Positions 43,577 through 62,600 of a DNA stretch of 64,000 bases are shown piece after piece. This DNA is from Fodinibius salsisoli. GTDB taxonomy: Bacteria > Bacteroidota > Rhodothermia > Balneolales > Balneolaceae. Position 1 is the stretch's first letter. Every line of letters begins with the position of its first letter. The DNA is taken from positions 62,001-126,000 of the forward strand of contig NZ_JAGGJA010000002.1 in the NCBI RefSeq assembly GCF_026229185.1, given 5' to 3'. The translations under genes were made by a program, and so were the position numbers. Below the pieces are notes generated by a model that saw only the letters and a list, made by a program, of their open reading frames with translations, did no database searches and was not told the DNA's origin.

Positions 43577-44719
43577 TTAAATGTATCTAACCCTCTCGGT
43601 ATCTATTGAATGGTTCTCCCACCGGCTTGCCTGCTTTTTTCGGGCCAAAAACGTTCGTTTAACAATTTCATCAGCGATCTGTTCAGCCGGATAATATTGA
43701 TGGGCCAAACCGGACTGCAACATCGATAGCGGCAGTTCACCGACCAGGGCATTTTGAGGATTCTGTACAATCACTTCTCCTCCTACTTCTTGGATCATCT
43801 TCGCTCCGGTGATACCATCAGCCCCATGACCGCTCAAAATCACTCCAAGCACCGACAGTCCATACAGTCGGGCGGCAGATCGGAATAGCACATCAGCCGA
43901 GGGACGAACCCCATTTTCTCTTGGTCCCTGGTGTACCTTCAACAGAGACCTGTTGCCATACTGCTGAACTTCACAATGATAGCCGCCCGGGGCCAGCCAG
44001 GCAATGCCGGGTTCCAGTTCGGCCCCGTCATGGGCTTCCTTAACCGTAATGTTAGATAGCTTATTCAAAGAATGCGCTAATACACTGGTATAGGTTTTAG
44101 GAAAATGTTGGGCTATCACAACCGGAGCCGACAAATAGGCTGGAAAGCGTTTAAAGATCGTAAAGAGTGCTTTTGGACCTCCTGTGCAGCCCTGCATCGC
44201 TATAAGATTGACAGAACGCCGGTAGCTTTTGGGAAACAAAGTCTTTTCCCGCTCCTGTTGGGAGTCATCAACGTCCGTATTTACAGCTTGCCTGTCAACC
44301 GTACCAGTGTCAATCATTTGACTTACGATGCTGATAATCGGTAGCAGTCGTTTTTTTAGATGGTTATCAGCAAATAACAGCGCATAATTTTGCTCGGGTT
44401 TTGTTATCACATCAATGGCCCCATTTTGCAGGGCATAAAGGGCGGCCCGGGCCCCCTCTTCCGATCGTGGACTTAGCACAACTACCGGAGTTTTAGGAAA
44501 TCGTACCCGCAGGGTGTTGAAAAATGAAAAATTATCCGGAGCCAGGGAACCAACATCCAACAAAACGATATCAGGGTTTTCATGCTCAATGAGTTTTTCA
44601 CTCTCATGTAGATCTCCACTAACGCGAAGCTCTACCTCAGGTTCACTGCTCAGTATACGTGCGAGCGCACGTCGAACTAAAATATCCTCATCTATCACAA
44701 GTATTTTTATCAATTCCAT
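43577..44719 (-). CDS. CheB-like response regulator methylesterase with Ser-to-Cys active site
   Basis: 380 residues. An N-terminal receiver (ILVIDEDILVRRALARIL; phosphoacceptor in IVLLDVG) precedes a CheB_methylest domain. The catalytic His is in VIAQHFPKTYTSVLAHSLN and the Asp in SGHGADGITGAK. The position of the nucleophilic Ser in the usual G-A-S-T-G-G-P motif is Cys178 here (QGCTGGPKA). The classical enzyme demethylates chemoreceptors, but no chemotaxis genes are nearby. The ATG at 44719 is preferred over 44737. Confidence 0.85.
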   Translation of the reverse strand: MELIKILVIDEDILVRRALARILSSEPEVELRVSGDLHESEKLIEHENPDIVLLDVGSLAPDNFSFFNTLRVRFPKTPVVVLSPRSEEGARAALYALQNGAIDVITKPEQNYALLFADNHLKKRLLPIISIVSQMIDTGTVDRQAVNTDVDDSQQEREKTLFPKSYRRSVNLIAMQGCTGGPKALFTIFKRFPAYLSAPVVIAQHFPKTYTSVLAHSLNKLSNITVKEAHDGAELEPGIAWLAPGGYHCEVQQYGNRSLLKVHQGPRENGVRPSADVLFRSAARLYGLSVLGVILSGHGADGITGAKMIQEVGGEVIVQNPQNALVGELPLSMLQSGLAHQYYPAEQIADEIVKRTFLARKKQASRWENHSIDTERVRYI

Positions 44720-45044
44720 AATGCAATACACCTTCATTATTATATTCCAACCCTCCCAAGCAGAGGGCCTTAACTTTTGAATAAAACCTACTCTCTTTTC
44801 TATGTTCTGTGTGAATACTGCATCAACAATAAATGACGTGTAACCCTTTTTCTTACAAAAACGTAAAGCCGCTGAGCATTCATGCCACTTCTTAACCCAT
44901 GCCTTTGGCTAACACTTCTAATCGATCCTTGATCTCTGACACGATTACCAGTATACATTCCTTTTCACTTTCTTTATGTACGGACTTTGGAGTGCGTCTG
45001 TGTGAGAAAAAATCCTACATGATTTACCAGGTAGTAAAGAAGTT

Positions 45045-45062: not shown

Positions 45063-45585
45063 CACATCAGCCGATATACTGCAAAGCCATTGCTTCTGGT
45101 TTTGTATGCTATGTGTAGAGTTATTTGACTTGCATCATTGTGAAGAAGAGCGAAGAGCACAGTCCGTCGCAATGCTATGGCATTGCAATGGATCAGTTAG
45201 AAAAATATCCGCTGACTATTCTTTTGATACTCTTGAAAAAAGAGATTAAAAAATGTGCTCCGGTTCTTTTTTTATTAGATTCCCACCCCAAGTTACTCGC
45301 TGATATTTATCTTCGAAAAAAGCAGATAAATACCCTCTTACTTTGTTGATTCCTTACCGGTTTGACCAGCATTTATTTTCAATATTCGGCCAAAATCTAT
45401 GCGTATACTTCCTCCCTGCCAAATCCCTACCTCGTCCACTGCCTGTAGGAGTTGGTACGGAGAAGGTACGGAGGAAACAAGGAGTTGATCCCGGCCAAAC
45501 AGTGATGGAATGGCTACCGTAACCGAATATCCACTTTGGGATGGCCAGGAAAATGAAACAATAAGTAGAAGAACCTTCAACCTAT

Positions 45586-45629
45586 TGCTTGATGATGCTT
45601 CAACCTACTACTTGAAACATCATCAAGCA
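45586..45629. repeat. long hairpin (17 pairs, one mismatch)
   Basis: TGCTTGATGATG-C-TTCAA, loop CCTACTAC, TTGAA-A-CATCATCAAGCA. Two short tandem repeats (CTTCAACCTA) lie in and beside it. It is about 260 bases before the first gene of the cassette-like region. Confidence 0.6.
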
Positions 45630-45886
45630 GTAAAGAGAATATGGTTAAAGCCCATAAGTAAACCTGAAGCTGCCAAACTTTCATAGGATGTGTAAGGCGG
45701 AGATACCACCGTCAACTCGTACATATAATATCTGTTATATGGCTTGGTAATACTTCAATAATAGAAATTGTCTTATTTCCCCTTTGGCAATGTCGTAATT
45801 CCCCCGTGCGAATGGTCTTTCCAACTGATATAATTAAAACGTCCGATTTCTTTGAAGCAATGATAACCTATATTGAATAAAATAGT

Positions 45887-46453
45887 ATGAGAAAACTAAT
45901 TGCCGCAATCAATACGACACTTGACGGGATATGCGACCATACAGCAGGAATTCCAGATGAAGAAATACATCAGCATTATACAGAATTATTAAGGCAGGGA
46001 GACGCAATTCTGTATGGCAGGACCACCTATGAACTTATGGAATTTTGGCGAACGTTGTTAGAAAACCCTTCAGAAGAAAAACCAATGAATGACTTTGCTA
46101 AAGCTATAGACAAAATTCCGAAAATAGTTTTCTCCAGCACGCTTAAAAATGTAGATTGGGAAAGTGCAACCATAGCAAAGTGTGATTTAAAAGAAAAAGT
46201 TTTAGAACTCAAGCAACAATCAGGTAAAGATATTTTAGTTGGCAGTCGGAGTTTAATTATACAGCTGATGAAACTTAATTTAATTGATGAATACCAATTT
46301 TGTGTTCATCCTGTTGTTGCAGGAAGTGGGCTCCCATTATTTGAAAATATAAACGACAGGACTATTCTTAAACTCATAAAGACTAAAACCTTTAGTGGTG
46401 GTGCAGTAACACTTTACTATGAACCGACAAACGAAAAAACAATGAACAGCTAA
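45887..46453 (+). CDS. dihydrofolate reductase/RibD C-terminal-like reductase
   Basis: 188 residues of the RibD_C/DHFR fold: RKLIAAINTTLDG at the start, ILYGRTTYELMEFW, KIPKIVFSSTLKNVDW, and KDILVGSRSLIIQLMKLNLIDEYQFCVHPVVAGSGLPLF with the glycine of NADPH binding. Such stand-alone proteins are common integron cassette genes, although the natural substrate is usually unknown. It is followed by the attC-like repeat at 46486. No ribosome-binding consensus precedes it. Confidence 0.85.
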   Translation: MRKLIAAINTTLDGICDHTAGIPDEEIHQHYTELLRQGDAILYGRTTYELMEFWRTLLENPSEEKPMNDFAKAIDKIPKIVFSSTLKNVDWESATIAKCDLKEKVLELKQQSGKDILVGSRSLIIQLMKLNLIDEYQFCVHPVVAGSGLPLFENINDRTILKLIKTKTFSGGAVTLYYEPTNEKTMNS

Positions 46454-46485
46454 CATTGTATAATACATTCTCACGCAAGAGCCGC

Positions 46486-46614
46486 TATATAACCAGCGCG
46501 TCAACGCGGACGCATCTCGCCCCACTCTGCCAACTTTTGGCTTTTTAGCTCTTCGTTCATTATTTAACAAATCAACATTAATGCGTGCGCACCTTATGCG
46601 CAATGACGTTAGGT
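46486..46614 (+). repeat. attC-like recombination site 1
   Basis: A 129-base imperfect inverted repeat. The left arm TATATAAC-CAGCGCGTCA-ACGCGGACGCAT pairs with the reverse complement of the right arm (GTGCGCACCTTATGCGC then GTTAGGT). GTTAGGT fits the GTTRRRY core. Unpaired bases between the arm segments match the usual attC layout. The centre (CTCGCCC...TTTTGG) is shared with the attC-like sequences at 48994, 50061 and 51846. Confidence 0.75.
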
Positions 46615-46627
46615 ATTCTTAAACAAG

Positions 46628-46865
46628 ATGAGCAGAATTCAAACAATTTTAGATTTCATTCTTGAGAATTTTGACAAATGCACCTATCAGGGAAGCTTAC
46701 ACAAACGGCTGTAATGTTGATGTAACGTACATGTTGGGCTATGGAGGAAGTTCTGTGCTTTTTCTGCCGAGTGAAGCCATCATATTTCGATTCATGGATG
46801 AATACGATCTGGATTTTGGTAATTTGGTACAAGTGGTGGAGAGGGTAAAACCATCATGTCAATAG
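46628..46865 (+). pseudogene. small cassette gene, frameshifted
   Basis: Frame 1 from ATG at 46628 reads MSRIQTILDFILENFDKCTY and stops at 46714. A frame shifted relative to it reads NAPIREAYTNGCNVDVTYMLGYGGSSVLFLPSEAIIFRFMDEYDLDFGNLVQVVE to 46865. The two look like halves of one small protein of roughly 75-80 residues, with the junction near 46670. I do not recognise the family. Confidence 0.55.
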
Positions 46866-46953
46866 AATCAAATAAAAAGCATAATATCGAACTTAGGCTT
46901 TAAGCTCATTACATCATCACGTATAACAAAGCAAAAAAAGAAGGCCATTAGCC

Positions 46954-48246
46954 ATGAAAGCACTCTTATTCTCAATAGGCACGAGGGGTGATATTGAACC
47001 ATTTCTTGCAATTGCGGAGCTACTAAAAGACAGAGATTGGGATGTGGTCTGTGTTTTTCCTGAGCAATTTAGAGCAACGGTAGAAAGTATGGGGCTTCCT
47101 TTCTACGGATTCAGCAGAGCCTTTCTTGATATGCTGGATAGCAAAGAAGCCAAAATGTTTATGGGTGGTCAGGGTTCATTTTTAAAACGGATTAAATTCC
47201 TGATAAAAATGGCTCGGTTTGGCTTGAAGCTGTCAAAGGATATTTTGGAGCTGCATCACAGGGTACAAAAAGAAGAAAGTCCGGATAGAGTTCTATACCA
47301 TCCGAAATGTAATTATAGCCTTATCTGGGGAATGGCGAATCCGGGTAAATCCATATTGGTAAGTCCTATTCCCGGGGTATGTCATACCATTAACCATCTG
47401 ACCATATTGGGTGATTATGGAAAAACCTTGAATAAATTAAGTTTTTGGGCACAAAACACGTTAAAGGCTTTAATGCTCTGGAAATTTTCCAAGCGATATC
47501 GTCAAGATTATCCCGATTTAAAAATTACAGTGTCGTCTATTAAAAAGGCGATGCTGAAAAAAGAGAAGACGTTGTATGCTATTTCTCCTTCGTTATTTCC
47601 CAAACCTGAATATTGGCCTTCATCGGCTCATATAGCCGGATATTATAAAAGGGACAAAACGGTTAACTGGAAGCCGGATGAAGCATTAACTTCATTTGTT
47701 AATGAGCATAACAAAATTGTCTTTGTCACTTTTGGGAGTATGTCAAATGCCCGTCCCAGGGAAACTACCAATATCTTAGTTGATGTATTGGAAAGAAATA
47801 ATATCTCAGCGATTATAAATACTTCATCAGGAGGATTGGAAAAGACGGCGGAATCTTTGGATAGTATTCATTTTGTGAACGACCTCCCATACGACTGGTT
47901 ATTTCCAAAAATCCAGGCAGTTGTTCATCATGGTGGCTCAGGAACCACGCATACCGCTTTAAAATATGGTTGCCCAAGTTTGATTATCCCTCATATTCTG
48001 GATCAATTCTTTTGGAATGAGACCATTTCAAGATTACAACTCGGGCCAAAGGGTATGTCTATAAAAAAACTGGATCAAAACAACTTTGAAAGCAAATTGT
48101 TAGACTTGGTTAACAATGATTCTTATAAAAACAATGCAGAACGAATGGCGGAAAAAATGAACACCGAAAGTAATAAGAATAAACTGTATGAATTAATCAT
48201 ATCCCGAAAGGACGGTAAAACCTTACAGGATTCGCCAAGGTGGTAA
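46954..48246 (+). CDS. GT1-family glycosyltransferase (UDP-glucosyltransferase-like)
   Basis: 430 residues, GT-B fold. The N-terminus (ALLFSIGTRGDIEPFLAIAELL) and the C-terminal donor motif (PYDWLFPKIQAVVHHGGSGTTHTALKYGCPSLIIPHILDQFFWN) with the HHGGSGTT loop match bacterial sterol, glycopeptide or flavonoid glucosyltransferases. It should transfer a sugar from a nucleotide donor; the acceptor is unknown. AT-rich codon use fits neighbouring cassettes. It starts 88 bases after the broken gene, and an attC-like site follows. Confidence 0.88.
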   Translation: MKALLFSIGTRGDIEPFLAIAELLKDRDWDVVCVFPEQFRATVESMGLPFYGFSRAFLDMLDSKEAKMFMGGQGSFLKRIKFLIKMARFGLKLSKDILELHHRVQKEESPDRVLYHPKCNYSLIWGMANPGKSILVSPIPGVCHTINHLTILGDYGKTLNKLSFWAQNTLKALMLWKFSKRYRQDYPDLKITVSSIKKAMLKKEKTLYAISPSLFPKPEYWPSSAHIAGYYKRDKTVNWKPDEALTSFVNEHNKIVFVTFGSMSNARPRETTNILVDVLERNNISAIINTSSGGLEKTAESLDSIHFVNDLPYDWLFPKIQAVVHHGGSGTTHTALKYGCPSLIIPHILDQFFWNETISRLQLGPKGMSIKKLDQNNFESKLLDLVNNDSYKNNAERMAEKMNTESNKNKLYELIISRKDGKTLQDSPRW

Positions 48247-48251
48247 AATAC

Positions 48252-48378
48252 GTATAATCAGCGCTTCAAGGGTAAAAGGTCTCGCCATTGGTTGCTCAGC
48301 TAAAGTTTTATGCCTAAAATTACACTACTAAATAATCCACGCAGGTCTGCCTGCACCTTAAGTGTAGGGGCGTTATAC
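48252..48378 (+). repeat. attC-like recombination site 2
   Basis: 127 bases. Left core GTATAAT followed by CAGCGCTTCAAGGGTA; right end CACCTTAAGTGTAGGGGC then core GTTATAC. The left and inverted right ends share GTATAA(T/C) and a CRCTTMAGG arm. The next gene starts 26 bases later. Confidence 0.65.
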
Positions 48379-48403
48379 CGCAATCAATATACGAGGCATT
48401 GAT

Positions 48404-48970
48404 ATGGGAAAATCAATTTCAAGGAAAGGTTTTTTAACTTCGACAACATTTCTTGGTATGAGTAGCATTCTCCCACAAATACCCATTATGGAACAAAATA
48501 CTGTCGTCGAAGCAAATCCCGATTTAATCCTCGATCCGGACGATGGGGAAGTATATATAATTGGGAAGCGCCAAGCTCGAGTAACCATTAAGGTGGACAA
48601 ACGACATAAAGGTATTGAAACGATGTCACTTCTTACTGAAGATATTAAGCCAAACGATGGAATCCCGGTTCACAAACATTCTTCGGAGGAGGAATTAATA
48701 TTTATAGAAAAAGGAACCGGAATATTAACATTTGGAGATGAGCAATATGAAGTTACATCAGGAAGCATGGCATTGGTTCCAAGAACAGTATGGCACGGAC
48801 TCCAGAACAAAAGCAATGAAATGTTGAGAATGGTATTTGGTTACACCCCTTCGGGATTTGAAGACTACTTCCGGGCTATTGGTGTAAAACCTGGAGAACC
48901 GTGGAAAGAACTAACGAGCGAAGATTGGCAACAAATCAATAATAAATTTGGAGTTGTGTATCGTGATTAA
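48404..48970 (+). CDS. cupin domain protein
   Basis: 188 residues. The cupin core spans about 85-150: the metal-ligand histidines are in PVHKHSSEEELIFIEKGTGILTF, with the second motif MALVPRTVWHGLQN. An N-terminal SRKGFLTSTTFLG segment resembles a Tat-type signal without the second Arg, so export is uncertain. A metal-dependent small-molecule enzyme or binding protein is likely, without known substrate. It is flanked by attC-like sites on both sides, so it looks like a single-gene cassette. Confidence 0.82.
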   Translation: MGKSISRKGFLTSTTFLGMSSILPQIPIMEQNTVVEANPDLILDPDDGEVYIIGKRQARVTIKVDKRHKGIETMSLLTEDIKPNDGIPVHKHSSEEELIFIEKGTGILTFGDEQYEVTSGSMALVPRTVWHGLQNKSNEMLRMVFGYTPSGFEDYFRAIGVKPGEPWKELTSEDWQQINNKFGVVYRD

Positions 48971-48993
48971 GCCTGACCATAAAAAGTGATGCG

Positions 48994-49120
48994 GTATAAC
49001 CAGCACATCAAGCTGACGTGCCTCGCCCTCTCCTGCCGATTTTGGGTTTGGCAATTTCTGTAGTACATTTTTTAAGTGTAACGCTGGCCTGCACACTGGT
49101 TACGCGTGGGGCTGTTATAG
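48994..49120 (+). repeat. attC-like recombination site 3
   Basis: 127 bases. Left core GTATAAC followed by CAGCACATCAAGCTGACGTGC; right end with TGCACACTGGTTACGCGTGG then core GTTATAG. The inverted ends align through TATAAC, CAC(A/G) and GTGC blocks. The centre at 49021-49096 is closely similar to that at 51894-51966. Confidence 0.75.
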
Positions 49121-49160
49121 GATCACCATGAGTTTCACCTTAAAATGACAATTAGTCTAA

Positions 49161-50039
49161 ATGGTTAAAGAAAGCATCTTGAAAATATTATTCGGTATTC
49201 TTTCTTCTGTCGGAATCATGGCAGCAGGATTCTATTTCTTTCTTTTTGCCAACCCCATTCATCTTCATCAGGCAAATCTCTTGAAATGGATCCCAATACT
49301 CATTTGCTTTCTGGCCTTATTTATAAGTGGGAAAATTAATAAAGAAACGCCTGTTGGATATCTGCCTTTGTTATTTATACCATTTGTCATTTTTGACCTG
49401 TTTAACTTTCTTTATTTCCCATTCATTATTGTTTTGACTATCACTGGAATAGTAGCTCTACTTATTTCAAGAGATGAAATCAGCAAAAATCTAAAAGTAG
49501 TTTCCGCCATATCAGTAGTTGGAATTTTCATCTATTACCTATTAGCTCAACCATTAATTATAGAGCAACAAGGGTTTGGGCGTAATGTGGATGGAGAATT
49601 AGTAAATGCAACTGTTTTGTGGAATCCTTCGGAAGAAGGACTCCAACCTCTGCCAACTCACATCTTGGTTGACGACGATAACAATAAGTTTCAGCTACAG
49701 AATATAGCCGGCAAGACACATTTTATTGCCTTTTGGGCAACGTGGTGTGGCCCATGTCTTGAAGAAAAACCTCAACTGGATTCTTTGAAACAAGCATACC
49801 AGGGAGATATTGAATTTATCGATATATCTATTGATGAAGACAAAGATAAGTGGCGGTCATTTATCGACAAGTACAACCCAGCTGGCTTGCAACTCATTAC
49901 AAATAATGTAGATAAAACCAGAAGGGATCTTAATATCAGTTCTCTTCCTCTCCACTTTATTGTTAACCAGAAAGGTGAATACCATTCATTTACCTCCTTA
50001 GATAAAGCTATGAAAGTACTTTCCCAAACCATTGAGTAA
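49161..50039 (+). CDS. TlpA-like thioredoxin-domain membrane protein
   Basis: 292 residues. Four to five membrane segments lie in the first 140 residues, followed by a periplasmic thioredoxin fold with WCGPC (Cys196, Cys199) in FIAFWATWCGPCLEEKPQLDSLK and cis-Pro region ISSLPLHFIV. It should reduce or isomerise disulfides on the periplasmic side. Such a fusion is unusual in size but TlpA-like. It is flanked by attC-like repeats, AT-rich, and looks like a cassette. Confidence 0.85.
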   Translation: MVKESILKILFGILSSVGIMAAGFYFFLFANPIHLHQANLLKWIPILICFLALFISGKINKETPVGYLPLLFIPFVIFDLFNFLYFPFIIVLTITGIVALLISRDEISKNLKVVSAISVVGIFIYYLLAQPLIIEQQGFGRNVDGELVNATVLWNPSEEGLQPLPTHILVDDDNNKFQLQNIAGKTHFIAFWATWCGPCLEEKPQLDSLKQAYQGDIEFIDISIDEDKDKWRSFIDKYNPAGLQLITNNVDKTRRDLNISSLPLHFIVNQKGEYHSFTSLDKAMKVLSQTIE

Positions 50040-50060
50040 CGTACTGGCAACAAGTTGGCC

Positions 50061-50252
50061 TTATAATCTGCACATTAAATGGAATGGTGCTCTCTCCTAT
50101 GCTAAAGCTTCGGCAGACAAGCGCCTCATCTTCTGGCTTTTATTTTTTCATTCAATATTTATTAACACCACATTTTTGGGCGCACCTTATGTACGTACAA
50201 CCTCCGTAGCGGTGTTACTTCGGTATAGGAGTCCGCAAGGCGGTCGTTAAAA
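50061..50252 (+). repeat. attC-like recombination site 4, interrupted and degenerate
   Basis: The left arm TTATAATCTGCACATTAAA... is similar to site 3, and the right arm GCGCACCTTATG (50180-50191) matches site 1. An insert of about 29 bases lies at 50097-50125. The right core is uncertain: GTTACTT (50214) or GTTAAAA (50246). A stretch AACCTCCGTAGCGGTGTTAC beyond the right arm recurs at 51980 with few changes. Confidence 0.55.
50097..50125. repeat. short insert inside attC-like site 4
   Basis: CTATGCTAAAGCTTCGGCAG and following bases are related to the insert at 3838 in the MITE-like copy 1. The relation is at the level of about 70-80% over 26 bases by eye. Both lie inside other repeat structures. 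Confidence 0.5.
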
Positions 50253-50261
50253 CATCTTATA

Positions 50262-50497
50262 TCAGTCTTGAATATGGAAAAAATCGGTAAACTGAACTGT
50301 ACGAACAGCTTCTCCTTGCTGTATCCCCGGCTGAAACCTGGCTTCTTTTATAACTCTCAGAGCTTCTTCATTACAACCACCTTTGATCCCCCGAATTACC
50401 TGGGATTCTTGATATCTCCGGTTTCCGTTACAATAAACTGGACGATGACAAAGCTATTTCCCTTTTTGTTCCAGGCGATACACCGGACCGTTAGAGC
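50262..50497 (-). pseudogene. TonB C-terminal domain remnant, frameshifted
   Basis: Directly after the serine hydrolase stop, one frame reads ...KGNSFVIVQFIVTETGDIKNPR and stops. A second frame continues VIRGIKGGCNEEALRVIKEARFQPGIQQGEAVRTV and ends at 50262. Joined, this is the TonB C-terminal fold (FIVTETGDI, VIRGIKGGCNEEALRVIKEARFQPG). A one-base loss in an AGGG run explains the break. The N-terminal part is missing. Confidence 0.75.
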
Positions 50498-51802
50498 TCA
50501 CTCTGAAATAACTTCCGAAGAATCCGACTTGAAGTGATTAAAGAAGCCCGGTATTACGGTTAACGGATACCTTGAGGGGGTGTTAATGAGAATGCAGATT
50601 CCTACTCTGTCTTCAGGAGCAAAAGCGATTTCGCTGCGGTAGCCGTTTACATACCCTCCGTGGTATACGATCTTTTGTCCATGATTATCAAGTACTCTCC
50701 ACCCCATTCCATAATGCGATTCGTCTACTCCATCCCAATACCGGCTAAACCGTCGGTTATGGATGGTCACAAAGGGATCATAAATTTCTTCAAGCGTTTC
50801 CTCAGAAATAACGTCGGGATAGTGCCCTGTTAACAGAAGCAGCCATTGCCCCATATCTGAGGCAGAAGCATTGATCCCCCCGGAAGAAACCGCGTTATAA
50901 TATTTCTCAGAAATTGACGTGGCTACGCGTCCCCTTGAACGGGAATGAAACATATGCGGCAAGGCTGTATTCCCCGAATTCCGAATGCTGTCATAACTTG
51001 CCGAGGTATAATCCATCGATAATGGTTCCAAGAGCTTTTCATTCAGCAGTGTGTTAAAGTCAGTGTTGGTTTGGACTTCCAGCACTTTTTCAATCGTTGA
51101 ATAGGCCGCATTTTGATAGGCAAGCTGTTCGCCTTCTTTTGAGATCAGGGGAACTTGTTCCAACCGGGGAATGATACGGTCCAAAGAGAGCCCGTCTTCC
51201 ACCAAATTCGTATATGCATGGCGTGGCAATCCAGAGGTATGAGATAACAGATGCCTGATCTGAACCCGATCGGTTTGCCCTGGGTCATGCAGCTTAAACT
51301 TTGCTAAATAATGAGATACGGGATCGTCCCAGCTTACAACTCCTTCTTCCACCATCAATCCCGTTAGTACCGAAGCAAAGCCTTTGGAAACACTTCCCAA
51401 TCTAAATACGGTGTGTTCATCAACTTCTTCGGACGTCCCTCTTTCCTTTACCCCAAATCCTTTTTGAAGAACAACCCGACCATCCTTTACGATGGCAACC
51501 GCGGCCCCGGGTATTTGTTCGTCTTTGAGTCCGCCTTTAAAATCTTGTCCAAACTCTTTTAGGTAGGTAGACAGGGATTCATCCATCACCCATTCTTTAG
51601 GTTCGGATTCAGGCTCAACAACCTTAGGCTCTGGTTTGATGTCGGTAAAAGACAGATAAGATATGAGAGTAACAATCAGTAAAAGAAATGTTGAAAAAAA
51701 TCGGATCACAGAATTTAGATGTGTGGGATAAAAAAGAAGTTCCTGTTTCGGATAAGAAATATATCCAAGGATACTAAAAACTAACTTCGATATAAACAGC
51801 AT
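50498..51802 (-). CDS. serine hydrolase, beta-lactamase family
   Basis: 434 residues. Two N-terminal hydrophobic segments (LVFSILGYI; FFSTFLLLIVTLISYL) precede the class C beta-lactamase fold. The catalytic SxxK is GSVSK (Ser137, Lys140), YQN is in AYQNAAYST, and the third motif is VYHGGYVNGYRS. The family includes D-aminopeptidases, esterases and beta-lactamases, and sequence cannot say which. It is on the minus strand, opposite to most of the array. Confidence 0.88.
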   Translation of the reverse strand: MLFISKLVFSILGYISYPKQELLFYPTHLNSVIRFFSTFLLLIVTLISYLSFTDIKPEPKVVEPESEPKEWVMDESLSTYLKEFGQDFKGGLKDEQIPGAAVAIVKDGRVVLQKGFGVKERGTSEEVDEHTVFRLGSVSKGFASVLTGLMVEEGVVSWDDPVSHYLAKFKLHDPGQTDRVQIRHLLSHTSGLPRHAYTNLVEDGLSLDRIIPRLEQVPLISKEGEQLAYQNAAYSTIEKVLEVQTNTDFNTLLNEKLLEPLSMDYTSASYDSIRNSGNTALPHMFHSRSRGRVATSISEKYYNAVSSGGINASASDMGQWLLLLTGHYPDVISEETLEEIYDPFVTIHNRRFSRYWDGVDESHYGMGWRVLDNHGQKIVYHGGYVNGYRSEIAFAPEDRVGICILINTPSRYPLTVIPGFFNHFKSDSSEVISE

Positions 51803-51845
51803 TGAGCTAAAATTTTATTCCTGTAAATCAATTCAGGCGAAATGG

Positions 51846-51977
51846 TCTATACCATTATGGATACTCTTATTTGTGTCCTGCATCAAAAATCGGTCTTGCC
51901 CTATCCTGCCGATTTTTAGTTCCTGAATTTCTGTAGTACATTTTTTTAAATTAATACTGGCTCGCACGGCGTTTATG
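51846..51977 (+). repeat. attC-like recombination site 5, degenerate
   Basis: The centre at 51894-51966 (TTGCCCTATCCTGCCGATTTT ... TTCTGTAGTACATTTTTTT) closely matches site 3. The left core is unclear (TCTATAC) and the right core is GTTTATG at 51971. The methyltransferase gene follows within about 70 bases. Confidence 0.5.
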
Positions 51978-52045
51978 TATAACCTCCGTGGCGGTGCTAC
52001 TTTGGCGTGGTTGTACGCAAACAGTAAAAGAAGAAACCTTAAATT

Positions 52046-52624
52046 ATGGAGAACGACCCTACCAACGGCTATGAAGCAATTGCTCAGGATTTCATCGCCT
52101 ATCGCAGAAAATCAGCCATCGGTGTTGAAGCTGTCCGCTCATGGGCGCATACTTTGTTGCCGAACGCCACGATTCTGGATCTTGGTTGTGGCAACGGCAT
52201 TCCAATTACCGAAGCATTAGTCAAAGATGGCTATACCCCTTATGGAATTGATGCTTCCCCAACACTGGTAGCATCATTTCGGGACCATTTTCCTGACCTC
52301 ACCGTGGCATGCGAGTCTGCAGAAACGTCTGACTTTTTTGACCGGAAATTTGACGGCATAGTTGCCTGGGGCCTGATGTTTTTGCTATCGGAAAGCATCC
52401 AGACCATATTAATCAATCGCATCTCATCAACTCTTACCCCGGGCGGTCAGTTCTTATTTACATCTCCAGAACAGGCTTGCACGTGGACCGATATCATGAC
52501 TGGGGTAGAATCTCGGTCACTCGGAGCCGAAAAATATGAACGTATTTTATCATCCGCAGGCTTATCATTAATCAGCAACGATATGGATGAAGGTGAAAAC
52601 TATTATTATGTTGCCAAAAAGTAA
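52046..52624 (+). CDS. class I SAM-dependent methyltransferase
   Basis: 192 residues. The SAM-binding motif I is ILDLGCGNGIPI (about 51-62), then YGIDASPTLVASF and FDGIVAWGLMFLL (motif II/III) and LTPGGQFLF. It should methylate a small molecule; the substrate is unknown. It is a typical single-gene cassette product. A repeat-like sequence precedes it and no clear attC follows. Confidence 0.88.
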   Translation: MENDPTNGYEAIAQDFIAYRRKSAIGVEAVRSWAHTLLPNATILDLGCGNGIPITEALVKDGYTPYGIDASPTLVASFRDHFPDLTVACESAETSDFFDRKFDGIVAWGLMFLLSESIQTILINRISSTLTPGGQFLFTSPEQACTWTDIMTGVESRSLGAEKYERILSSAGLSLISNDMDEGENYYYVAKK

Positions 52625-53036
52625 TGGAAACGACAATCATGCAACGTTAAATACTTGTGGCCCAATACTTTAAAAGGATAATGACAATCCGCCGCCCGGC
52701 ATCCAACCACTATCTTGGGTATAAAACTTAGGGAAACATGCCTTAAGGATTACTTCTTAGATAATTAACCCTTTTGGGCAATGTAACCGTTGCTACCTTG
52801 CCCGCCTCCCATTTATTAGTTATATCTTTTATTAATAATCAGTTTCAAAAGATGACACCGGTCCTTATGAAATCCTGCAAAGTGGGGCAAGTAGTGGCAT
52901 TCTACAGGGCTGGAAGCTTATGTGCTGGGTCGTAATATCTCACCTTAACCGGGAAGATGCTTATTTTAGGTGGCTATGCTGAACGAACTCAGACCAGTGC
53001 CTCTGTGTGGTTCGTTCAAAACAAAAAACATAACAC
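52625..53036. other. intergenic stretch with gene debris and a hairpin
   Basis: About 410 bases. A short frame (DDTGPYEILQSGASSGILQGWK, then stop) may be a remnant. GAACGAAC...GTTCGTTC (52981-53017) forms a perfect 8-bp inverted repeat just before the next gene. CGTTAAAT near 52643 fits the GTTRRRY core, but no paired arm was found. Confidence 0.4.
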
Positions 53037-53588
53037 ATGATACCATCATACGCAGGGTTATGGATACGGGTGAAAGCATTCTTGGCTGATTACCTCTTCA
53101 TCGCCCTTTATATAGTATTCCTAACCATTTTAAGCAGTGTCATTCAATCGGTTTTTCCGGATATAATTGAAATACTGTTCGAAAACCCGCTATCCGGGCA
53201 GTTATCCGGATTTATTTTAATTACTTTACCAGTTACTCTTTATTTCACGCTCTTAGAATCTTCAGCACACCAGGCAACTTGGGGAAAGCGCTGGCAAGGA
53301 ATAAAAGTCATTTACAATGATGGCAAAAGGTTGAGTAAAACAAGAGCGTTGAGCCGAACAGCCCTAAAATTTATCCCCTGGGAGTTGGCCCATACTTGTA
53401 TCTGGCAAATGAGTGGTAATAGCCCGGAGCTCACACCGATAATCTTAGTCGGTTTTGTTCTCGTTTGGACCTTAGTTGGCGTTTATCTGCTAACACTTTG
53501 GATTGGTTCAAATAAACAACCACTCTACGACCGCATTACAAACACCTTCGTGGTTAAAACGAATAAAGATCCAGCTCCCCTCTCATAA
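53037..53588 (+). CDS. RDD family membrane protein
   Basis: 183 residues with four hydrophobic segments and RDD-like residues: MIPSYAGLWIRVKAFLADYL at the start, HQATWGKRWQGIKVI (the conserved G-K-x loop) and LYDRITNTFVV at the end. The family is thought to be transport-related. No partner is visible. It lies in the cassette-like region, and its flanking repeats are too degenerate to define ends. Confidence 0.82.
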   Translation: MIPSYAGLWIRVKAFLADYLFIALYIVFLTILSSVIQSVFPDIIEILFENPLSGQLSGFILITLPVTLYFTLLESSAHQATWGKRWQGIKVIYNDGKRLSKTRALSRTALKFIPWELAHTCIWQMSGNSPELTPIILVGFVLVWTLVGVYLLTLWIGSNKQPLYDRITNTFVVKTNKDPAPLS

Positions 53589-53859: not shown

Positions 53860-54357
53860 ATGCAGAAACCAATTACTTTAGTTGCACTATTTTTCTGTAT
53901 CTCTACGATTAGTTGTTTAGCTCAGGATTATGCTTCCCAAAGTCCCAGTGAATTACAAGCCCATAATCGGTTGCGAGCTGAAATTATAAAAATGGATAGC
54001 TTGCTATTTGAGGTGGCATTTAACAAGTGTAATTTACCGTTATATAAACAAATCGTTACGGATGATTTTGAGTTTTATGATGATCGATCGGGACTCAATA
54101 AATCGTTGGATAAAGAAATTATGTCTTTCCAAGACCGCTGTTCTAAACCTTACTCAGTAACGCGAAAGCTTATTACCTCTGAGGTTCATATCCTGGGTGA
54201 TTATGGAGCCCTTCAGACTGGTGAACATGAATTCTATGTAAACGATGAAAAGGTTCAAAAAGCAAAGTTTACAACTATCTGGGAAAAGCACAGAGAGTCT
54301 TGGATTATGAAGCGTGCGATAAGTTACGATCACCAGGATGTTAAGAATGACGATTAG
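53860..54357 (+). CDS. exported NTF2-like (DUF4440-type) protein
   Basis: 165 residues. A signal peptide (KPITLVALFFCISTISCLA, cleavage near QDY) is followed by an NTF2-like cone: EIIKMDSLLFEVAFNKCNLPLYKQIVTDDFEFYDDRSG and later FTTIWEKHRESWIMKRAISYDH. Ligand or enzyme role is unknown. It is AT-rich, as with neighbouring cassettes. Confidence 0.8.
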   Translation: MQKPITLVALFFCISTISCLAQDYASQSPSELQAHNRLRAEIIKMDSLLFEVAFNKCNLPLYKQIVTDDFEFYDDRSGLNKSLDKEIMSFQDRCSKPYSVTRKLITSEVHILGDYGALQTGEHEFYVNDEKVQKAKFTTIWEKHRESWIMKRAISYDHQDVKNDD

Positions 54358-54448: not shown

Positions 54449-54542
54449 ACTCCGGTGCGTTAAACACGAGAGCATTCGGTGTAACTTTTTGCAACAGAAT
54501 ATCGTCTACTCTTTTAATCCATGAACAAAATACGATAATACC

Positions 54543-54668
54543 ATGCTACATAATATTCATTTCCTCCAAGAAAGATTCCCAAATCAGTCCGATAACATCC
54601 TTTCAGTATCAATAATACTATTGACAAGTGCTCTGACCATAGGTGTTGGATTACTATTTTTGTTATAA
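54543..54668 (+). CDS. possible 41-residue membrane peptide
   Basis: MLHNIHFLQERFPNQSDN is followed by one hydrophobic helix ILSVSIILLTSALTIGVGLLFLL and stop. It ends 13 bases before the alpha/beta hydrolase gene, suggesting co-transcription. Single-helix micro-proteins can be real, but a chance frame cannot be excluded; no clear ribosome-binding site is seen. Confidence 0.35.
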   Translation: MLHNIHFLQERFPNQSDNILSVSIILLTSALTIGVGLLFLL

Positions 54669-54681
54669 GAATTATTAGATC

Positions 54682-55437
54682 ATGACCAAAATGCGGAAAT
54701 ACATCCACATTGGATTGGGGGTATTCTGGCTCGGTGTTACTGCGTGGCTTTTTTATAATATGCAGGCTCATGGACTGGAATCATCCGTAATGGATAGCAA
54801 TGAAAAGGTTCATGTCCAGCGTTCATCCAACGCCTTTATATTTACCCCGGCTGTTGATACAATGGAAGCTGCGCTGATTTTTTATCCCGGTGCCCTGGTT
54901 GATCCAAAAGCTTATGCCCCGATGGCAAAAGCCATTACAGAGGTCGGTTTTAAGACCATCATCTTAGCATTGCCTTATCGAATGGCTTTGTTTCAATCAC
55001 AGCAGGATAACGTATTTCAACGCACATTGGAGTACATTGAAGGTGATTCACTGCAACGAAACTGGATTGTCGGCGGACACTCTCGGGGTGGGAAACTTGC
55101 TACACTATTTGCCCGGGATCACAGCAATGCCCTTGGTGGATTATTACTCGTTGGCACATCACATCCCAGGGAGCTTGATCTTTCCAACCTGACGATTGAT
55201 GTGACCAAAATATATGGTTCCAATGATGGGCTGGCCAGCGAAGAGGAAATAGAAAGATTTGCTATAAATCTTCCTGCTCATATGCATCGTGAAAGAATTG
55301 CAGGTGGCAATCATCGACAATTTGGATATTACGGTTATCAACTTGGGGATGGCTCAGCTGAAATATCCCGCCAAGAGCAACAAGATATTATGACCCTCGC
55401 TATAATTAAGCAACTTCGTAGGGTTCGAGTCCGCTAA
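54682..55437 (+). CDS. alpha/beta hydrolase with N-terminal anchor
   Basis: 251 residues. One N-terminal membrane segment (YIHIGLGVFWLGVTAWLFYNM) is followed by a compact alpha/beta hydrolase (FIFTPAVDTMEAALIFYPGALVDPKAYAPMAKAI). The nucleophile is in GGHSRGGKLA (Ser134), the acid in YGSNDGL and the His in IAGGNHRQFG. The family hydrolyses esters; the substrate is unknown. Likely membrane tethered. Confidence 0.85.
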   Translation: MTKMRKYIHIGLGVFWLGVTAWLFYNMQAHGLESSVMDSNEKVHVQRSSNAFIFTPAVDTMEAALIFYPGALVDPKAYAPMAKAITEVGFKTIILALPYRMALFQSQQDNVFQRTLEYIEGDSLQRNWIVGGHSRGGKLATLFARDHSNALGGLLLVGTSHPRELDLSNLTIDVTKIYGSNDGLASEEEIERFAINLPAHMHRERIAGGNHRQFGYYGYQLGDGSAEISRQEQQDIMTLAIIKQLRRVRVR

Positions 55438-55491
55438 AAACGATATATTTTGGTTAGGCGAACCACATAGCTTGTATTATGTGGCTGCTCG

Positions 55492-56532
55492 ATGATAGCT
55501 TATATACGCCCAAAATCAATGACCGTATCTTACCCTCAAACTCTGGAGCTACCATTGAAGAAGGTTTTTTTAATCATATTCTCTATCCTAATTATTGGAT
55601 GCCAAGATAATAAACGGATACCCATACTAGATGACGGATATATAACCGGTGCAGAGGGAGCACAAATATACTACCAAGTGATGGGAAGCGGGCAAGACTC
55701 CATTGTGGTAATACATGGTGGACCGGGGGCCGGCATGCATTCTGTGCTTCCTTCGGTCAGGCCTTTAGCTCAACATTATGTACTGATATTCTATGATCAA
55801 AGAGGAGGTGGAAAGTCGGAGCTCCCGGCAGATACGACAAAATTACAGCCCTCATATTTTGTTGAAGATCTTGAGGCAGTACGCCAACATTTTGGCCTGG
55901 AAAAAATGAATGTACTCACTCATTCCTTTGGCTCCGTCTTGGTAGCTCAGTATGCCCAAAATTATCCTGAACATTTGAAGAGACTGGTCTTTCATGGTGC
56001 AACAGGCCCCGACCTCCAACAGGAACTTACATTACGAAAATTAAAGGCATCCCGGGCGCCACCTTCGCCAGATACGACCCTCTCGAACCGTGCCTCTGAA
56101 CTACTGCAGAAACTGCTTAAGGGAACAGCCTCTAATCCTGTGGAAACTTGCCAAGAGTATGAAAACATCAATAAAAAGCTGGCTATGGCTCGTGGGGATA
56201 CCATCACCTATAAAGGCACAACATGTAACGCTCCCCCCGAAGCCGTTCATTATTACTACCGATATACGGCTCAACTTGCCCCTCGATATTATAATGGCTG
56301 GGACTTTACCACTAAACTGGATCAGCTTAGGGCCCCTCTTTTAGTTGTTTATGGAAAAGAAGATTCCTCAATGATACCTGCACAACGTTCCTGGGCTTCT
56401 TCTATCCCCAATGGGCGCCTGCTGCTGATACCCAGCGCCGGAAAGGCCGCCTTTTCTGATAATCCCGGGTTTGTATTTCCTGCCATCGATATGTTTTTCA
56501 GTGGCAAGTGGCCCCAAAATGTGACCCCATAG
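55492..56532 (+). CDS. lipoprotein alpha/beta hydrolase with altered catalytic site
   Basis: 346 residues. Near residue 37 LIIGCQD forms a lipobox after a hydrophobic run. The fold is proline-iminopeptidase-like: VVIHGGPGAGMHSV, FYDQRGGGKSE, nucleophile THSFGS (Ser145; T where G is usual), acid in YGKEDSS. At the His position (usual G-A-G-H) the sequence is SAGKAAF, with Lys318. The enzyme may be inactive or use another base. An alternative Met lies at residue 10. Confidence 0.78.
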   Translation: MIAYIRPKSMTVSYPQTLELPLKKVFLIIFSILIIGCQDNKRIPILDDGYITGAEGAQIYYQVMGSGQDSIVVIHGGPGAGMHSVLPSVRPLAQHYVLIFYDQRGGGKSELPADTTKLQPSYFVEDLEAVRQHFGLEKMNVLTHSFGSVLVAQYAQNYPEHLKRLVFHGATGPDLQQELTLRKLKASRAPPSPDTTLSNRASELLQKLLKGTASNPVETCQEYENINKKLAMARGDTITYKGTTCNAPPEAVHYYYRYTAQLAPRYYNGWDFTTKLDQLRAPLLVVYGKEDSSMIPAQRSWASSIPNGRLLLIPSAGKAAFSDNPGFVFPAIDMFFSGKWPQNVTP

Positions 56533-56600: not shown

Positions 56601-59600
56601 CTAATCATGTTGTTTATCCACCAGTTGTAGCACCACCGAATGATTTTGGTTATCGTTTTTCAGTTTAACTTTGGCAACGCCTTCAGGAAAGCTTACCAAC
56701 TGCTCATCAATAGTCCCTTCAAGCCCTCCTGATTCCAGCCCATTCGGATTCTGTACTTCTACATCATAAACGGTGCGCCCATCTTCTGACTTCCACCGGA
56801 TGCTGTAGTCCTCCCATTCCGGTGAAATAACCGGTTGAATGGTCATCGTATTTCCTTTCAGCCGGATCCCCAGGATAGATTCCAGGGCTACCCGGTACAT
56901 CCACCCAGCCGATCCGGTGTACCAGCTCCACCCACCCTGTCCCACATGGGGAGGTTCGCCGTACACATCTCCAGCTACTACGTAGGGTTCCACTTTGTAC
57001 AGGTCGGCCGCTTTCTGTTCCCGGGCATGATTTATTGGATTTATCATCCGTAAATATTTGACAGCCTTCTCCCCGGATCCCATCTCCGCAAACGCTCTGA
57101 CGGTCCAGAGTGCAGCGTGGGTATATTGGCCTCCGTTCTCTCGCACCCCGGGAATATATCCTTTGATGTATCCCGGATTCCGCTTCGTTTGATCAAACGG
57201 GGGCGTTAACAGGCGAATAAGGCCATCTTGTTCTGATATCAAGTACTCTTCTAACGCCGCGAGGGCTTTCCGTTTTTTCTCTTCAGGAGCCGCCCCTGAT
57301 ATCACGGACCATGCCTGGGCTACGGCATCGATACGGCACTCATTATTTTGGGCAGACCCCAGGGGCGTGCCATTGTCATAAAAAGCCCGGATGTACCAGT
57401 TCCCATCCCACCCCTCCTGATTGAGATGTTTGGCCAGTTTGTGGGCTGACTTTTGATACCGTTCTGCTCGCTCTTCATCCCCCATTTGCTTGCAGTACGG
57501 GATGAATGTTTGCAAAATAGAATACATAAAGAAACCTAACCAGACGCTTTCCCCCTGCCCTTCGTGTCCCACTCGGTTCATTCCGTCGTTCCAGTCTCCA
57601 GCGCCAATCAGGGGCAATCCATGCGCGCCCATTTTTAACGTAATGTCAATTGCTTTGATACAGTGTTCATAGAGTGAGCCACTGATATTTGTATCTGACA
57701 ATCCTGAAAGAGGCCTTCGCGAGGGCTGCAAGTACGCCTCATGTTCATGGTCCGCCAGTTTTCGGGCTTCCAAATAAGAAATCGTTTCATCCAGAATCGC
57801 TTCATCTCCTGTCGATTCTATATAAAAGGCGGTTACATATGGCAGCCAAAGCCGGTCATCCGAAATCTTGGTTCTAACTCCCCGTCCCGTTGGCGGGTGC
57901 CACCAGTGCTGCACATCGCCTTTAATGAATTGACGGGAAGCATGCAGCAGGATCTGATCCCGTGTCATCTGAGGATCCACGTAGAGAGCCGCCATTGCAT
58001 CCTGAAGCTGATCACGAAATCCATAAGCCCCGCCGGCCTGATAAAAGGCTGCACGCGACCACATCCGGCAGGCGATTGTTTGATATAGCAGCCAACCGTT
58101 CATCATGAGGTTTAGGGCCGGGTCAGGTGTTTGAATATCAATGCGCCCCAGACTATGGGTCCAAAATTCGCGGACCTCCTCAAAAGCTTTTTCAACCTGT
58201 TGATGATCTCTGTATCTTTGGGCCAGCTGCTCTGCCTCCTTAGCTGTGTCTCCTTCCCCCATCAGGGCTATGCATTCGATCTTTTCTTCGGGTTCCAATG
58301 TTATGGTAAGTTGAAAGGCAGCGCAGGGATCGCCGCCTATTTTCACTTCGTTATCAAGCTGTGTCTGTTCCGCCACCGCTCGCGGCCGTTTTAATGAGCA
58401 GTTTCGGCCGATAAACTTCTCCCGGTCTGTCGTAAAGGCCAGTCCTTTTTCCTCTACATAATGCGGGCTGGAACGAGGAACGGGCAGGAAGCTCGAAAAG
58501 GCCATACGACCAGCGAATTCATTATTATAATGATTCCTGGCATAGATCGTATCGCCCTCTTGGTTTGCTTCCTGAACGATATAACGCGCAGATGCTTCCC
58601 TGTTAATCCCCAGTACCCATGCCTGGTAACTAAACAGCGAAAGATGGCGTTTTTTCGAACTCTTATTGCATATGGACAGTTTAGAAATTTTAACCGGATC
58701 TTCGCGGGGAACGAACTGCAGCAATTCAGATTCTATACCATATGACGTATGTCGATGCCGCGTATATCCAAACCCATGTGATACTTCATAACGGCCATGG
58801 CCCGGTACCGGACCTGCTGTAGGCGACCAATAGGTCTGGCGTTCTTCATCGCGTATATAGAATGCTTCCGAATGGGGATCAAGGGTAGGGTCGTTTGACC
58901 AGGAAGACAACTTATTTTCGCGACTGTTTTCACTCCAGGTGTACCCAGCCCCGGTTTCTGTAGCTATAAAGCCAAAAGAGGGATTGGCAATTATATTTAT
59001 CCAGGGGGCTGGGGGTAATTGGTGTAACCCTCTATCCGGATCAGGCTTTAGCAAGATGCGATACTCATTATCTTCTTTCGAAAATCCCCCATATCCATTA
59101 AAGAACTGAAGCTCTGTTTTGCTATCCATTATATCTGTAACGGTACTCTCTGCTATGGAAGCCCTACTATAGGTTACAGCATCCACTCCTTTATGAAAAG
59201 AATCTACTTTTTGTTTCTGGATCAGATCATCAATTTTTGGAAGGCTCCCCTCTAAGACTACTGAAGCAACCGTCAATATAAGAACAAGATCATCTTCGGG
59301 CAGGCGATCTGAACGTAAGACAAACACATTGTCATTTTCATGCCCCTGGTAGCGACTATATGAACTTTCCACCGTTTGCTGTAAACCTTGCTGCAGTTCA
59401 TCAACATAGCCGGACATGTGATCATTTAAAATGACTAAATCAGTTTGGAGTCCCCTCTGCTTCCATAACAGATGGCCTTTTAACATCCTTTCGACCGATT
59501 TCAGCTGCTCTGACTTGTCGATACGAAAAACAATCACCGGGTGGTCTCCCGAAATGCCGTAAGTCCATAGATTAGACTGTTTAAGGTAGTTTTGGCTTAA

Positions 59601-62600
59601 TATTTCAGCACTGGATCTGAGGTGAGAATCGTTATAAAGCATGTAGGAAGCCAGTTTTTGGAAATACTGAAATCGCTCACTGCTGATGCCTATATGATCC
59701 AGTTCAACTGTGTTGTAGATGGATGATAAATCAAAGGCCCGATCAACCGCATAGGGATTATCAAACCTATCGACCAGTTCTACGGCTTCTTTGCGGGACC
59801 CGGCCCACCCGATTCCATAGGTGACCTGTATTTTTTCACCGGCCTTTAGGTTCACTACCCGCCGCAGGCTCATAACCGGATCCGAGACATTACCGATGGA
59901 GCCACTCAGCCTGTATCCCTCCTGCATAGCCTGTGGGTTCAACAAGCTACGTCCCCGGCCTATAAAGTTAGACCGTTCTGTCTCGAACTGTAGTGGTTCC
60001 GTCAGGTTCTCCAAATCATAACTGGCTACGGTATGAACCATAAACTTGGGCTGTTCGCTATCCATCCGGGGCCTCCTCCAGGCAATAAGACCATGATGCT
60101 CGGCCAGGTAATCGGTCTGTACAAACAGTTTGGAGAAGGCAGGATGGGCGTTATGATGTTGAGCCTGGTTAAGGACTACTTCGGCGTAACTGGTCAGTTC
60201 AAGCGTTCTGCGGCGATCAGAATAGTTGGTAAGCGTTATCTTTCTGAGCTCAATGGGATGCTCGGGAGATACACATATTTCTGTGGTTGTTTCAAGCCAT
60301 TCATCCACTCGTGATGTCTGTACTTTCCCGTTGTGAAACCAGCTATCATAACGATCGGGCTTACGTTTAACCGGCTGATGGAATGCCGACCAATATTCTC
60401 CCGTTTCTCGATCTTTGATATAAACAAATAAGCCCAGTGGATCTTCTGTGGGATCCGCCTTCCAGCCGGTTAGCATAATATCATTATAATATGAACTGCC
60501 TGTGCCGCTATGGCTTACGAACGTATGGTATTGCCCATTCGACAGCAGATGAACCCGCGGCGGGGCGTCATCCAGGTTATTTATACCGGCGTGCTCAACT
60601 ACATAATGCATACTATGCTGTTCACCGGGCTCCATCTCTACATCAATTGGGTGCGGTTCTTTTATAGGAATGCCCCGCGGGATACGCTCTTGCAGGAGGA
60701 GTTCACAGGCTTTGATCTGAGGATCGGCATGAAAATAGTTATGAATCGTCCAGCCGTTAAGTACGTTTAAAAAAGCAATAAGGCTCATCCCGTGGTGGTG
60801 GGCCATATACGTTTTAACCACACGGTATGGTTCCAATTCCGGCAGGTGATCCGGGGTAAAATCAATAGCATCGTAATATCCCCTGAGACCGAGTCCTCCA
60901 ATGTCTTTTAGCACCTCCAGGTTATCCAACGCATCTTTAGGATCTACCATTAGAGCCAACGCTGATGCATAGGGGGCTACCACAAACTCTTCGGCCAGCC
61001 CCCGTTTTAATCCCAGGCCCGGGGCGCCAAAGGCACGGTATTGATAGTTCAAATCGATGTTAAGAATGTTATAAGCACTCTCTGAGAACCCCCAGGGGCG
61101 GTCAAACTTTTGACTGTATTCACGTTGCCATTCCACAATCCGCGCGTAGGTATGGCTTAACAAGGTGTATGGATAAGAGCGCATAAATAACAACGGCATT
61201 AAGTACTCAAAGGTCGTACCGCCCCATGAAAGCAGAAATTCATCATTATTCCTGCTCGTCAACCGGCGGCTCAATCGAAACCAGTGTTCGGAGGGCACAT
61301 CCCCTTTTGCGATGGCAACAATGGAAGCAATACGGGCCTCGCTGGCCAATAAATCATATGTTCCTTTATCCAGTTCTGCTTTCTCGACATTATAGCCGAT
61401 GTTAAACAATCCCTTTTTCTTGTTATAAATAAACCTAAAATCCATCTCCGCAACCAGCTGCTCACAGATAGAGGTGATGGAGTGGACCTGTCTCGTCCAT
61501 TGCTTTAACATCCTGTATTCTTCGGAGTCTTTGGATTGTTCCAGCTTCTCCAGTCGTTTGGCAGGCGGAACCTCTAACCCAGAATCATCCGCTGTTGAAT
61601 AGGTATATCCGGATAGTTCCTTCTTGTAACTTTCGACCTGTCTCAGTGGGCTTTCAAGCCAAAAGAGCAGGTCGTCAACGCGGGCATCTCCTAATGAGCT
61701 ACGAAATTTCATAAGGTTATTCCCGCATAGCGTACAGGCTGATTCTTTAAGTTCGTTCAATAGTCTAATGCTTTCTGAAATGGTCGCTGGGCTCTCTCTT
61801 CCATTCAGCTTGTTTAACATCCGGCTGATACTGGTTTTTATTTGTCGGCAGACGTCTTCATAACCATTTTCATTTCCCTGAGGTTCGAGATCAGAAAAAA
61901 TAGCATGCACTGTTTCCAAGGTATCTTCCAACCCTTTCCAGAAAGCCGCATTGGGATTTTCTTGTCTTAGCAACTGCCCAACGGCTTGTTTGACAACAAT
62001 AAGTCCGGCGGCAAGGTTACCCGAGTCGACGGTTGATACATATTTAGGATTAAGTACTTCTCCCAGCCGTATATCATACCAGTTATAAAAATGCCCGTTG
62101 TACCGATCCAGTTGCATCAGTGAATTTAACGTCCTCTCCAGGCGCGATAAAAGTTCGCTCAAGGTTATATAGCCCATTTCGTATGCTGCCTGGGTGGCAA
62201 CCAATGTCAGCCCGATATTAGTAGGCGAGGTTCGGGCGACGGGAGGCAACAGCGGATCTTCCTGGTAGTAATCCGGTGGCAGCCACGAATATTCTTCGTT
62301 CACCAGGCGCTCAAAGTAAAACCAAGTCCGACGGGCATATCTTCGCAGTTTCGATTTGTCGTCTCCAGAAAGCCCGTTTTTAGAAGACAAATGCGGATGT
62401 GGATGACTAAAATACCATGCAAAGCCGGGCGAACTTATCCAGAGTAATGAAAATGGAACAACAATCCAGAGGCTTCCCGGGTCAATAAGAAGAGCCGTTA
62501 TCAAAACAGCAATCCCTAACAATACAGATATCCCCATTAATCGGATGTACTCATAAACGGTATTTGAGCTCAAGGCTTCAGCCCGGGAAGCTGATGTCCA

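Follow-up and report, generated by a model that had tools for sequence, protein, structure and literature searches.

An attC cluster lacking a neighboring integrase in a Fodinibius genome of the Balneolaceae

The integron integrase, IntI, binds to the bottom strand of an attC site in its folded state, and strand exchange occurs at the G^TT triplet. The Bacteroidota are among the listed carriers of integrons (PMC8618304), and a complete integron is known in Salinibacter ruber M1 (PMC9024848). For clusters of attC sites without a neighboring integrase, referred to as CALINs, three routes of formation have been published, namely off-target insertion, loss of intI, and rearrangement (PMC8618304). 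An earlier reading of the DNA considered here, made from the sequence alone, had held that integrons are little described in the phylum. The reports just cited agree with that statement only in part. For the Balneolaceae, no description of integrons was found in the literature searched, the coverage of which was partial, such that this is no proof of novelty.

The window analyzed is the whole 64-kb stretch of DNA (C22:62001-126000) from a draft assembly of 43 contigs totaling 4.85 Mb. Its segment from 45,734 to ~56,530 is almost certainly a CALIN containing ~8-10 Balneolaceae integron cassettes; the gene cluster is a known kind of element in a Balneolaceae host. This reading follows from the matches to an attC covariance model, from a flanking gene pair that is split here but adjacent in the congeners carrying both, from the sharing of cassettes with edges at GTT, and from genes that occur as attC-flanked cassettes in relatives. 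The sequence-only reading had proposed a CALIN-like array, and the independent attC model, the break in synteny, and the GTT-edged sharing bear it out. The limits it gave, 45887-52045, have been revised: the left end lies at 45734, the cassette-derived stretch extends to ~56530, and it includes at least one further attC remnant, at 52797-52849.

The array is bordered by two genes that lie outside of it:

43577-44737, minus strand: left flank, CheB-type response-regulator methylesterase (PF01339)
56601-63914, minus strand: right flank, large GH94 glycosyl hydrolase, cyclic-glucan-synthase-like (PF17167)

These genes are neighbors, at most a few hundred bases apart, in all 10 of the 10 congeners that carry both, whereas the distance between them here is 11.9 kb. 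The GC content of the array is 41.0% as compared to 45.9% in the rest of the window, and the previous description of its genes as AT-rich applies to the array as a whole but not to every gene. Comparison with the empty sites did not yield exact insertion edges, the intergenic DNA being too diverged, with G011 alone slightly above shuffles.

The attC sites and remnants are as follows:

46486-46616, plus strand: attC site 1 (95.1 bits, E 5.5e-23; crossover GTT at 46608)
48251-48380, plus strand: attC site 2 (59.4 bits, E 1.7e-13; crossover GTT at 48372)
48993-49122, plus strand: attC site 3 (74.7 bits, E 1.4e-17; crossover GTT at 49114)
~50058-50254, plus strand: attC site 4, decayed or of an extended-arm type (8.8 bits, E 0.85; assigned by its cores, its position, and a 3'-arm insert that site 5 also carries)
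51844-52018, plus strand: attC site 5, truncated (29.8 bits over 51881-51977, E 1.2e-5)
52797-52849, plus strand: attC remnant (site 6), a core fragment only (83% identical to the attC core L274:1195-1246 within the attC at L274:1171-1265)

The covariance model was built from six attC sites situated beside the genome's own intI genes (loci L017, L018, and L025), and the window sites were left out. It is tuned to the genus Fodinibius and probably misses other attC types. In the entire 64-kb window it gave four matches at E-values of up to 10, all on the plus strand, corresponding to sites 1, 2, 3, and 5. A CALIN requires at least two clustered attC sites; here three strong sites lie within 2.7 kb, accompanied by one partial site. 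The covariance-model check that had been proposed for the array thus identified sites 1-3 as attC, as claimed, with 95, 59, and 75 bits from a model never trained on them. Two degenerate sites had likewise been proposed. Site 5 is indeed a truncated relative, but site 4 is unsupported by the model, lying below noise even with the filters turned off.

The sites display imperfect inverted arms (R''/L'' and L'/R') with extrahelical bases and AAC/GTT cores, except that the left core of site 2 reads AAT, not AAC. The 18-base motif at the left end of site 1, with up to three mismatches allowed, occurs three times in the window versus 0.05 expected from shuffles. Judging from their sequences, sites 1 and 3 look usable and sites 4-6 look degraded.

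Among the six training sites, 94.7% of the R/L arm cells pair, and seven pairs are changed on both sides. For 105 distinct sites of the family the corresponding value is 90.3%, a figure inflated by the fitting of the alignment to the structure, and 17 of the 22 pairs are changed on both sides, far above what is observed with shuffled or slid partners. When the partner is offset by one to three columns, arm pairing falls to 19-44% across both sets (19-41% for the training set). The bottom strand of site 1 by itself, when folded without constraints, has a minimum-energy fold that is not the canonical hairpin (z of -0.23 versus shuffles); those of the intI-adjacent sites A1, A2, B2, and B3 include the arm pairing. 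Given that unconstrained folding of site 1 does not favor the hairpin, the structural claim for attC rests on the comparative data.

A fold no better than shuffles would also be expected if the repeats were ordinary intergenic palindromes of the REP or MITE kind and not attC sites. That explanation is scarcely credible, however, in that a model derived from intI-adjacent sites recovers the window sites, the arms contain compensatory pair changes, the sharing of cassettes is edged at GTT, and attC is associated with intI over 89 genomes (see below; relatedness ignored). The model matches and the GTT-edged sharing already contradict it. An Rfam scan of 44-57 kb revealed a chance match to a microRNA family only. 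The sites of the array are members of the attC family that is found beside the IntI genes elsewhere in the genome.

A palindromic insert of ~36 bases (ACAGCCTACGTAGCCGTGCTACTTCGGCGTAGTAGTC) occupies a matching position within the 3' arm of at least seven attC-like sites of the genome, namely at 50200-50240 and 51975-52010 of the window and at L018:14658, L035:2423, L038:297, L042:143, and L280:5849. It is absent from the loci of the relatives examined. The insert may mark an attC subtype particular to this lineage, or it may be a very small element lodged inside attC.

The genes of the array, together with the left boundary of cassette 1, are listed below:

45734-45740, plus strand: left end of cassette 1, GTTATAT, with the G^TT triplet (DNA homology to three genomes starts at 45734, 45735, and 45736)
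45887-46453, plus strand: cassette 1 gene, RibD_C (dihydrofolate-reductase-like), 188 aa (PF01872, E 8.8e-18)
46954-48246, plus strand: cassette 2 gene, GT28/UDPGT-type glycosyltransferase, 430 aa (PF06722, PF03033, PF00201)
48404-48970, plus strand: cassette 3 gene, cupin, 188 aa (PF07883, E 4.9e-16)
49161-50039, plus strand: cassette 4 gene, TlpA/ResA-like thioredoxin fold with a hydrophobic N-terminal half, 292 aa (PF13905)
50498-51802, minus strand: serine β-lactamase-fold (AmpH/class C-like) protein, 434 aa (PF00144, E 1.3e-60)
52046-52624, plus strand: SAM-dependent methyltransferase, 192 aa (PF13649)
53037-53588, plus strand: RDD-family membrane protein, probably cassette-derived (PF06271)
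53860-54357, plus strand: DUF4440 protein, probably cassette-derived, from its position alone (PF14534)
54459-55439, plus strand: former cassette with an α/β-hydrolase gene at 54682-55437 (GTTAAAC boundary at 54459)
55492-56532, plus strand: former cassette, proline-iminopeptidase-like α/β-hydrolase (G025 relative in an attC array)

As the earlier reading had stated, the genes are functionally unrelated, here as judged by Pfam, and are mostly on one strand, the sole exception being the β-lactamase-fold gene. The cassette status of this gene is uncertain, and it may not be a cassette, because its close homologs are widespread in the family and it lies on the opposite strand. The stretch at 50260-50449, between site 4 and the β-lactamase-fold gene, is ~70% conserved in many genomes of the family and is possibly a gene fragment. 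Homologs of the cupin are present in only two other genomes of the family. The cargo is ordinary, consisting of a reductase, a glycosyltransferase, a cupin, a thioredoxin-like protein, and hydrolases.

Cassette 1 is shared with three genomes, G011, G016, and G025, the last of which belongs to another genus. Its protein copies are 94, 91, and 90% identical, respectively, and the DNA identities are 93.7, 86.2, and 88.9%, with the similarity starting in all three within two bases of the GTT at 45734. In G011 and G025 it ends at the left core of site 1 (~46484-46494), and in G016 it runs through the attC. The G011 copy is preceded by an apparent attC 3' half. In G011 and G016 the proteins on either side of the array show 45-72% identity, as opposed to 86-94% DNA identity for cassette 1. 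The cassettes have moved as units.

For three window genes besides cassette 1, the relatives adjoin attC or the similarity begins at GTT. A G091 homolog of the TlpA-like gene is 87% identical at the DNA level, with the similarity starting at the site-3 GTT (49113), and a relative in G024 is positioned directly after an attC (L273:2935-3027). The stretch containing the first hydrolase (54479-55439) has a counterpart in G011:C18 (L267:6869-7830) that is located between attC sites at 7827-7958 and 6728-6856; homology to G066 begins at 54460, the GTT being at 54459. The second hydrolase (55571-56524) has a homolog of 75% DNA identity in G025:C4 (L268:7472-8434), after an attC (L268:8550-8675) and in an attC array that lies 7 kb from intI. 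The RDD-family gene has a 75% DNA homolog elsewhere in G012. Loss of attC is nearly complete in the right half of the array (beyond 52 kb). The end of the array was placed at ~56530 on the basis that the genes there are attC-adjoining cassettes in relatives, although the local attC sites have decayed.

A complete integron has intI and attI beside its array, and no intI is present at this one. The three IntI proteins of the genome gave no meaningful tblastn match and no IntI coding remnant in the 64-kb window, and contig C22 contains no match to TIGR02249, in agreement with the original observation that no integrase is visible. The suggested search of the rest of the genome was positive. Two full-length IntI genes are located at C33:437206-438141 (~450 bits) and C40:113482-114420 (~433 bits), well above the TIGR02249 cut-off of 265; the proteins P0001 (~434 bits) and P0002 (~451 bits) are full length with the catalytic Tyr in MIYTHV. 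A third intI, at C40:302978-304219, is broken, its last 26 codons being separated from the rest by an interruption of ~290 bases, such that the main frame (C40:303347-304219, P0003) lacks the catalytic Tyr, and a fragment occurs at C33:227314. Searching the genome with the attC model gave 55 matches at E-values of up to 1, of which 49 were at 0.001 or better. Most of these lie in clusters, whether beside intI, at C22:23-43 kb, or on C10, C3, C12, C41, and C43. Outside of such settings, where the repeats would have counted against attC, only a few isolated matches occur.

Two additional features of these loci were noted. An IS110-family transposase gene (L020:2958-3980; PF01548, PF02371) is situated between two half attC sites, the element region L020:2690-4110 corresponding to C40 ~307.7-309.1 kb, and on C10 (L038) an attC is bordered by what looks like the right end of another copy. 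The C40 element is presumably akin to the IS1111/IS110 elements known to target attC. Among its cassettes, the third integron includes a TIR-domain and SIR2-like gene pair (L020:160-2676), possibly a phage-defense pair.

The left edge of the array is a bare GTT. The position 45734 scores -1.5 against a matrix of 22 family attI sites, for which most true sites score >15 when left out in turn and one attI with a shifted spacer scores -8.3. On its sequence, the half-site to the left of 45734 is not recognizable as either a clear attI or a clear attC. Farther to the left, a segment of 184 bases (45320-45503) is 77% identical, in the same order and orientation, to DNA on C40 that lies ~0.2-0.3 kb past the point where the broken third intI ends at its 3' side. 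It belongs to a short repeat with the core GTAGGAGTTGGTACGGAGAAGGTA, of which the genome holds four copies (45320-45503 of the window, C40:302562-302747, C12:50559, and C22:306126), three of them near integron parts. The segment was considered as proof of an intI deletion and was rejected as such for insufficient evidence. Between this segment and the GTT, 45504-45733 has no similarity above shuffles to the flanks of the three intI genes.

Several routes could have left the cluster without an integrase. That a complete integron at the site lost its intI and attI and left the cassettes behind is an almost evenly balanced proposition. It is consistent with the resemblance of 45320-45503 to the flank of the broken intI, with the location of two of the other three GTAGGAGTTGGTACGGAGAAGGTA copies near integron parts, with a right half that has lost its attC sites, as would happen in an array that is old and in decay, and with the broken and fragmentary intI in the genome. 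The missing coding remnant, the lack of above-chance similarity in 45504-45733, and the poor attI score argue against it, although one true attI scores lower still, and the shared repeat is of limited length and could be an intergenic element of a general kind.

The bare GTT, which has no recognizable attI or attC half, would suit a build-up in place, whereby an IntI acting in trans inserted cassettes off-target at a non-attI (attG-like) chromosomal site. With two full-length IntI and several isolated attC sites in the genome, this published route (PMC8618304) is a possible origin, but one regarded with some doubt. By itself it leaves unexplained both the non-coding interval of ~1 kb that separates cassette 1 from the CheB-like gene and the repeat common to the flank of the third intI.

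A second, larger CALIN, with ~15 attC matches on the minus strand, is present at C22:23228-43113, ~65-67 kb upstream of the window array. The cluster might be a piece of a larger array such as this one, moved by rearrangement, the two being on opposite strands of the same contig. No direct sign of such an event was noticed, and it is an unlikely origin.

By whichever of these routes the CALIN arose, all of its elements fit established integron biology, the recombination activity itself being presumed. From the homology that is bounded by GTT in several genomes we infer that recombination by IntI may have occurred between the G and the TT. An IntI encoded elsewhere in the genome would act in trans on the bottom strand of attC once it has folded, and strand exchange at the G^TT triplet would have joined the cassettes into the array. 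If such recombination continues at present, the cassettes with intact sites, at least, could still be excised. With an empty site, a shared cassette edged at GTT, and intI in trans, the locus provides a clean comparative case that bears on the origin of integrase-less clusters.

Within the family, 50 of 92 genomes encode an IntI above the cut-off, and attC matches occur in 58 of 89, including all 12 of the 12 from the genus. At least two attC sites are present in 40 of the 48 intI-positive genomes versus 11 of the 41 intI-negative ones (Fisher p 1e-7, relatedness ignored). The Balneolaceae, and Fodinibius especially, are probably integron-rich: they would have one attC family in common, each genome would carry several intI genes along with scattered CALINs, and cassettes would cross genera. 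If so, the family is a natural system outside of the Proteobacteria for observing CALIN formation. An integron system with dispersed cassette arrays is hereby placed in a halophilic family for which the literature searched holds no such description.

With respect to known systems, the closest solved relative of the genome's IntI (P0002) is IntI4 (2a3v; E 9e-88) from the sedentary chromosomal integron of Vibrio cholerae. The VCR-type attC sites of that organism are ~130 bases in length with a long center and form a genome-specific family, as in the array described here. The Fodinibius genome differs in its phylum and in having several separate arrays and intI genes, not one large array. The integron of Salinibacter ruber M1, likened here by its description, is likewise that of a halophile, placed in the Bacteroidetes by the paper that reports it, but the family is a different one (PMC9024848). 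The closest counterpart in kind is the CALIN as defined by IntegronFinder (PMC9024848), with at least two tandem attC sites, unrelated cassette genes mostly on one strand, and no intI nearby, from which the present cluster departs in its Balneolaceae host and in a right half nearly without attC.
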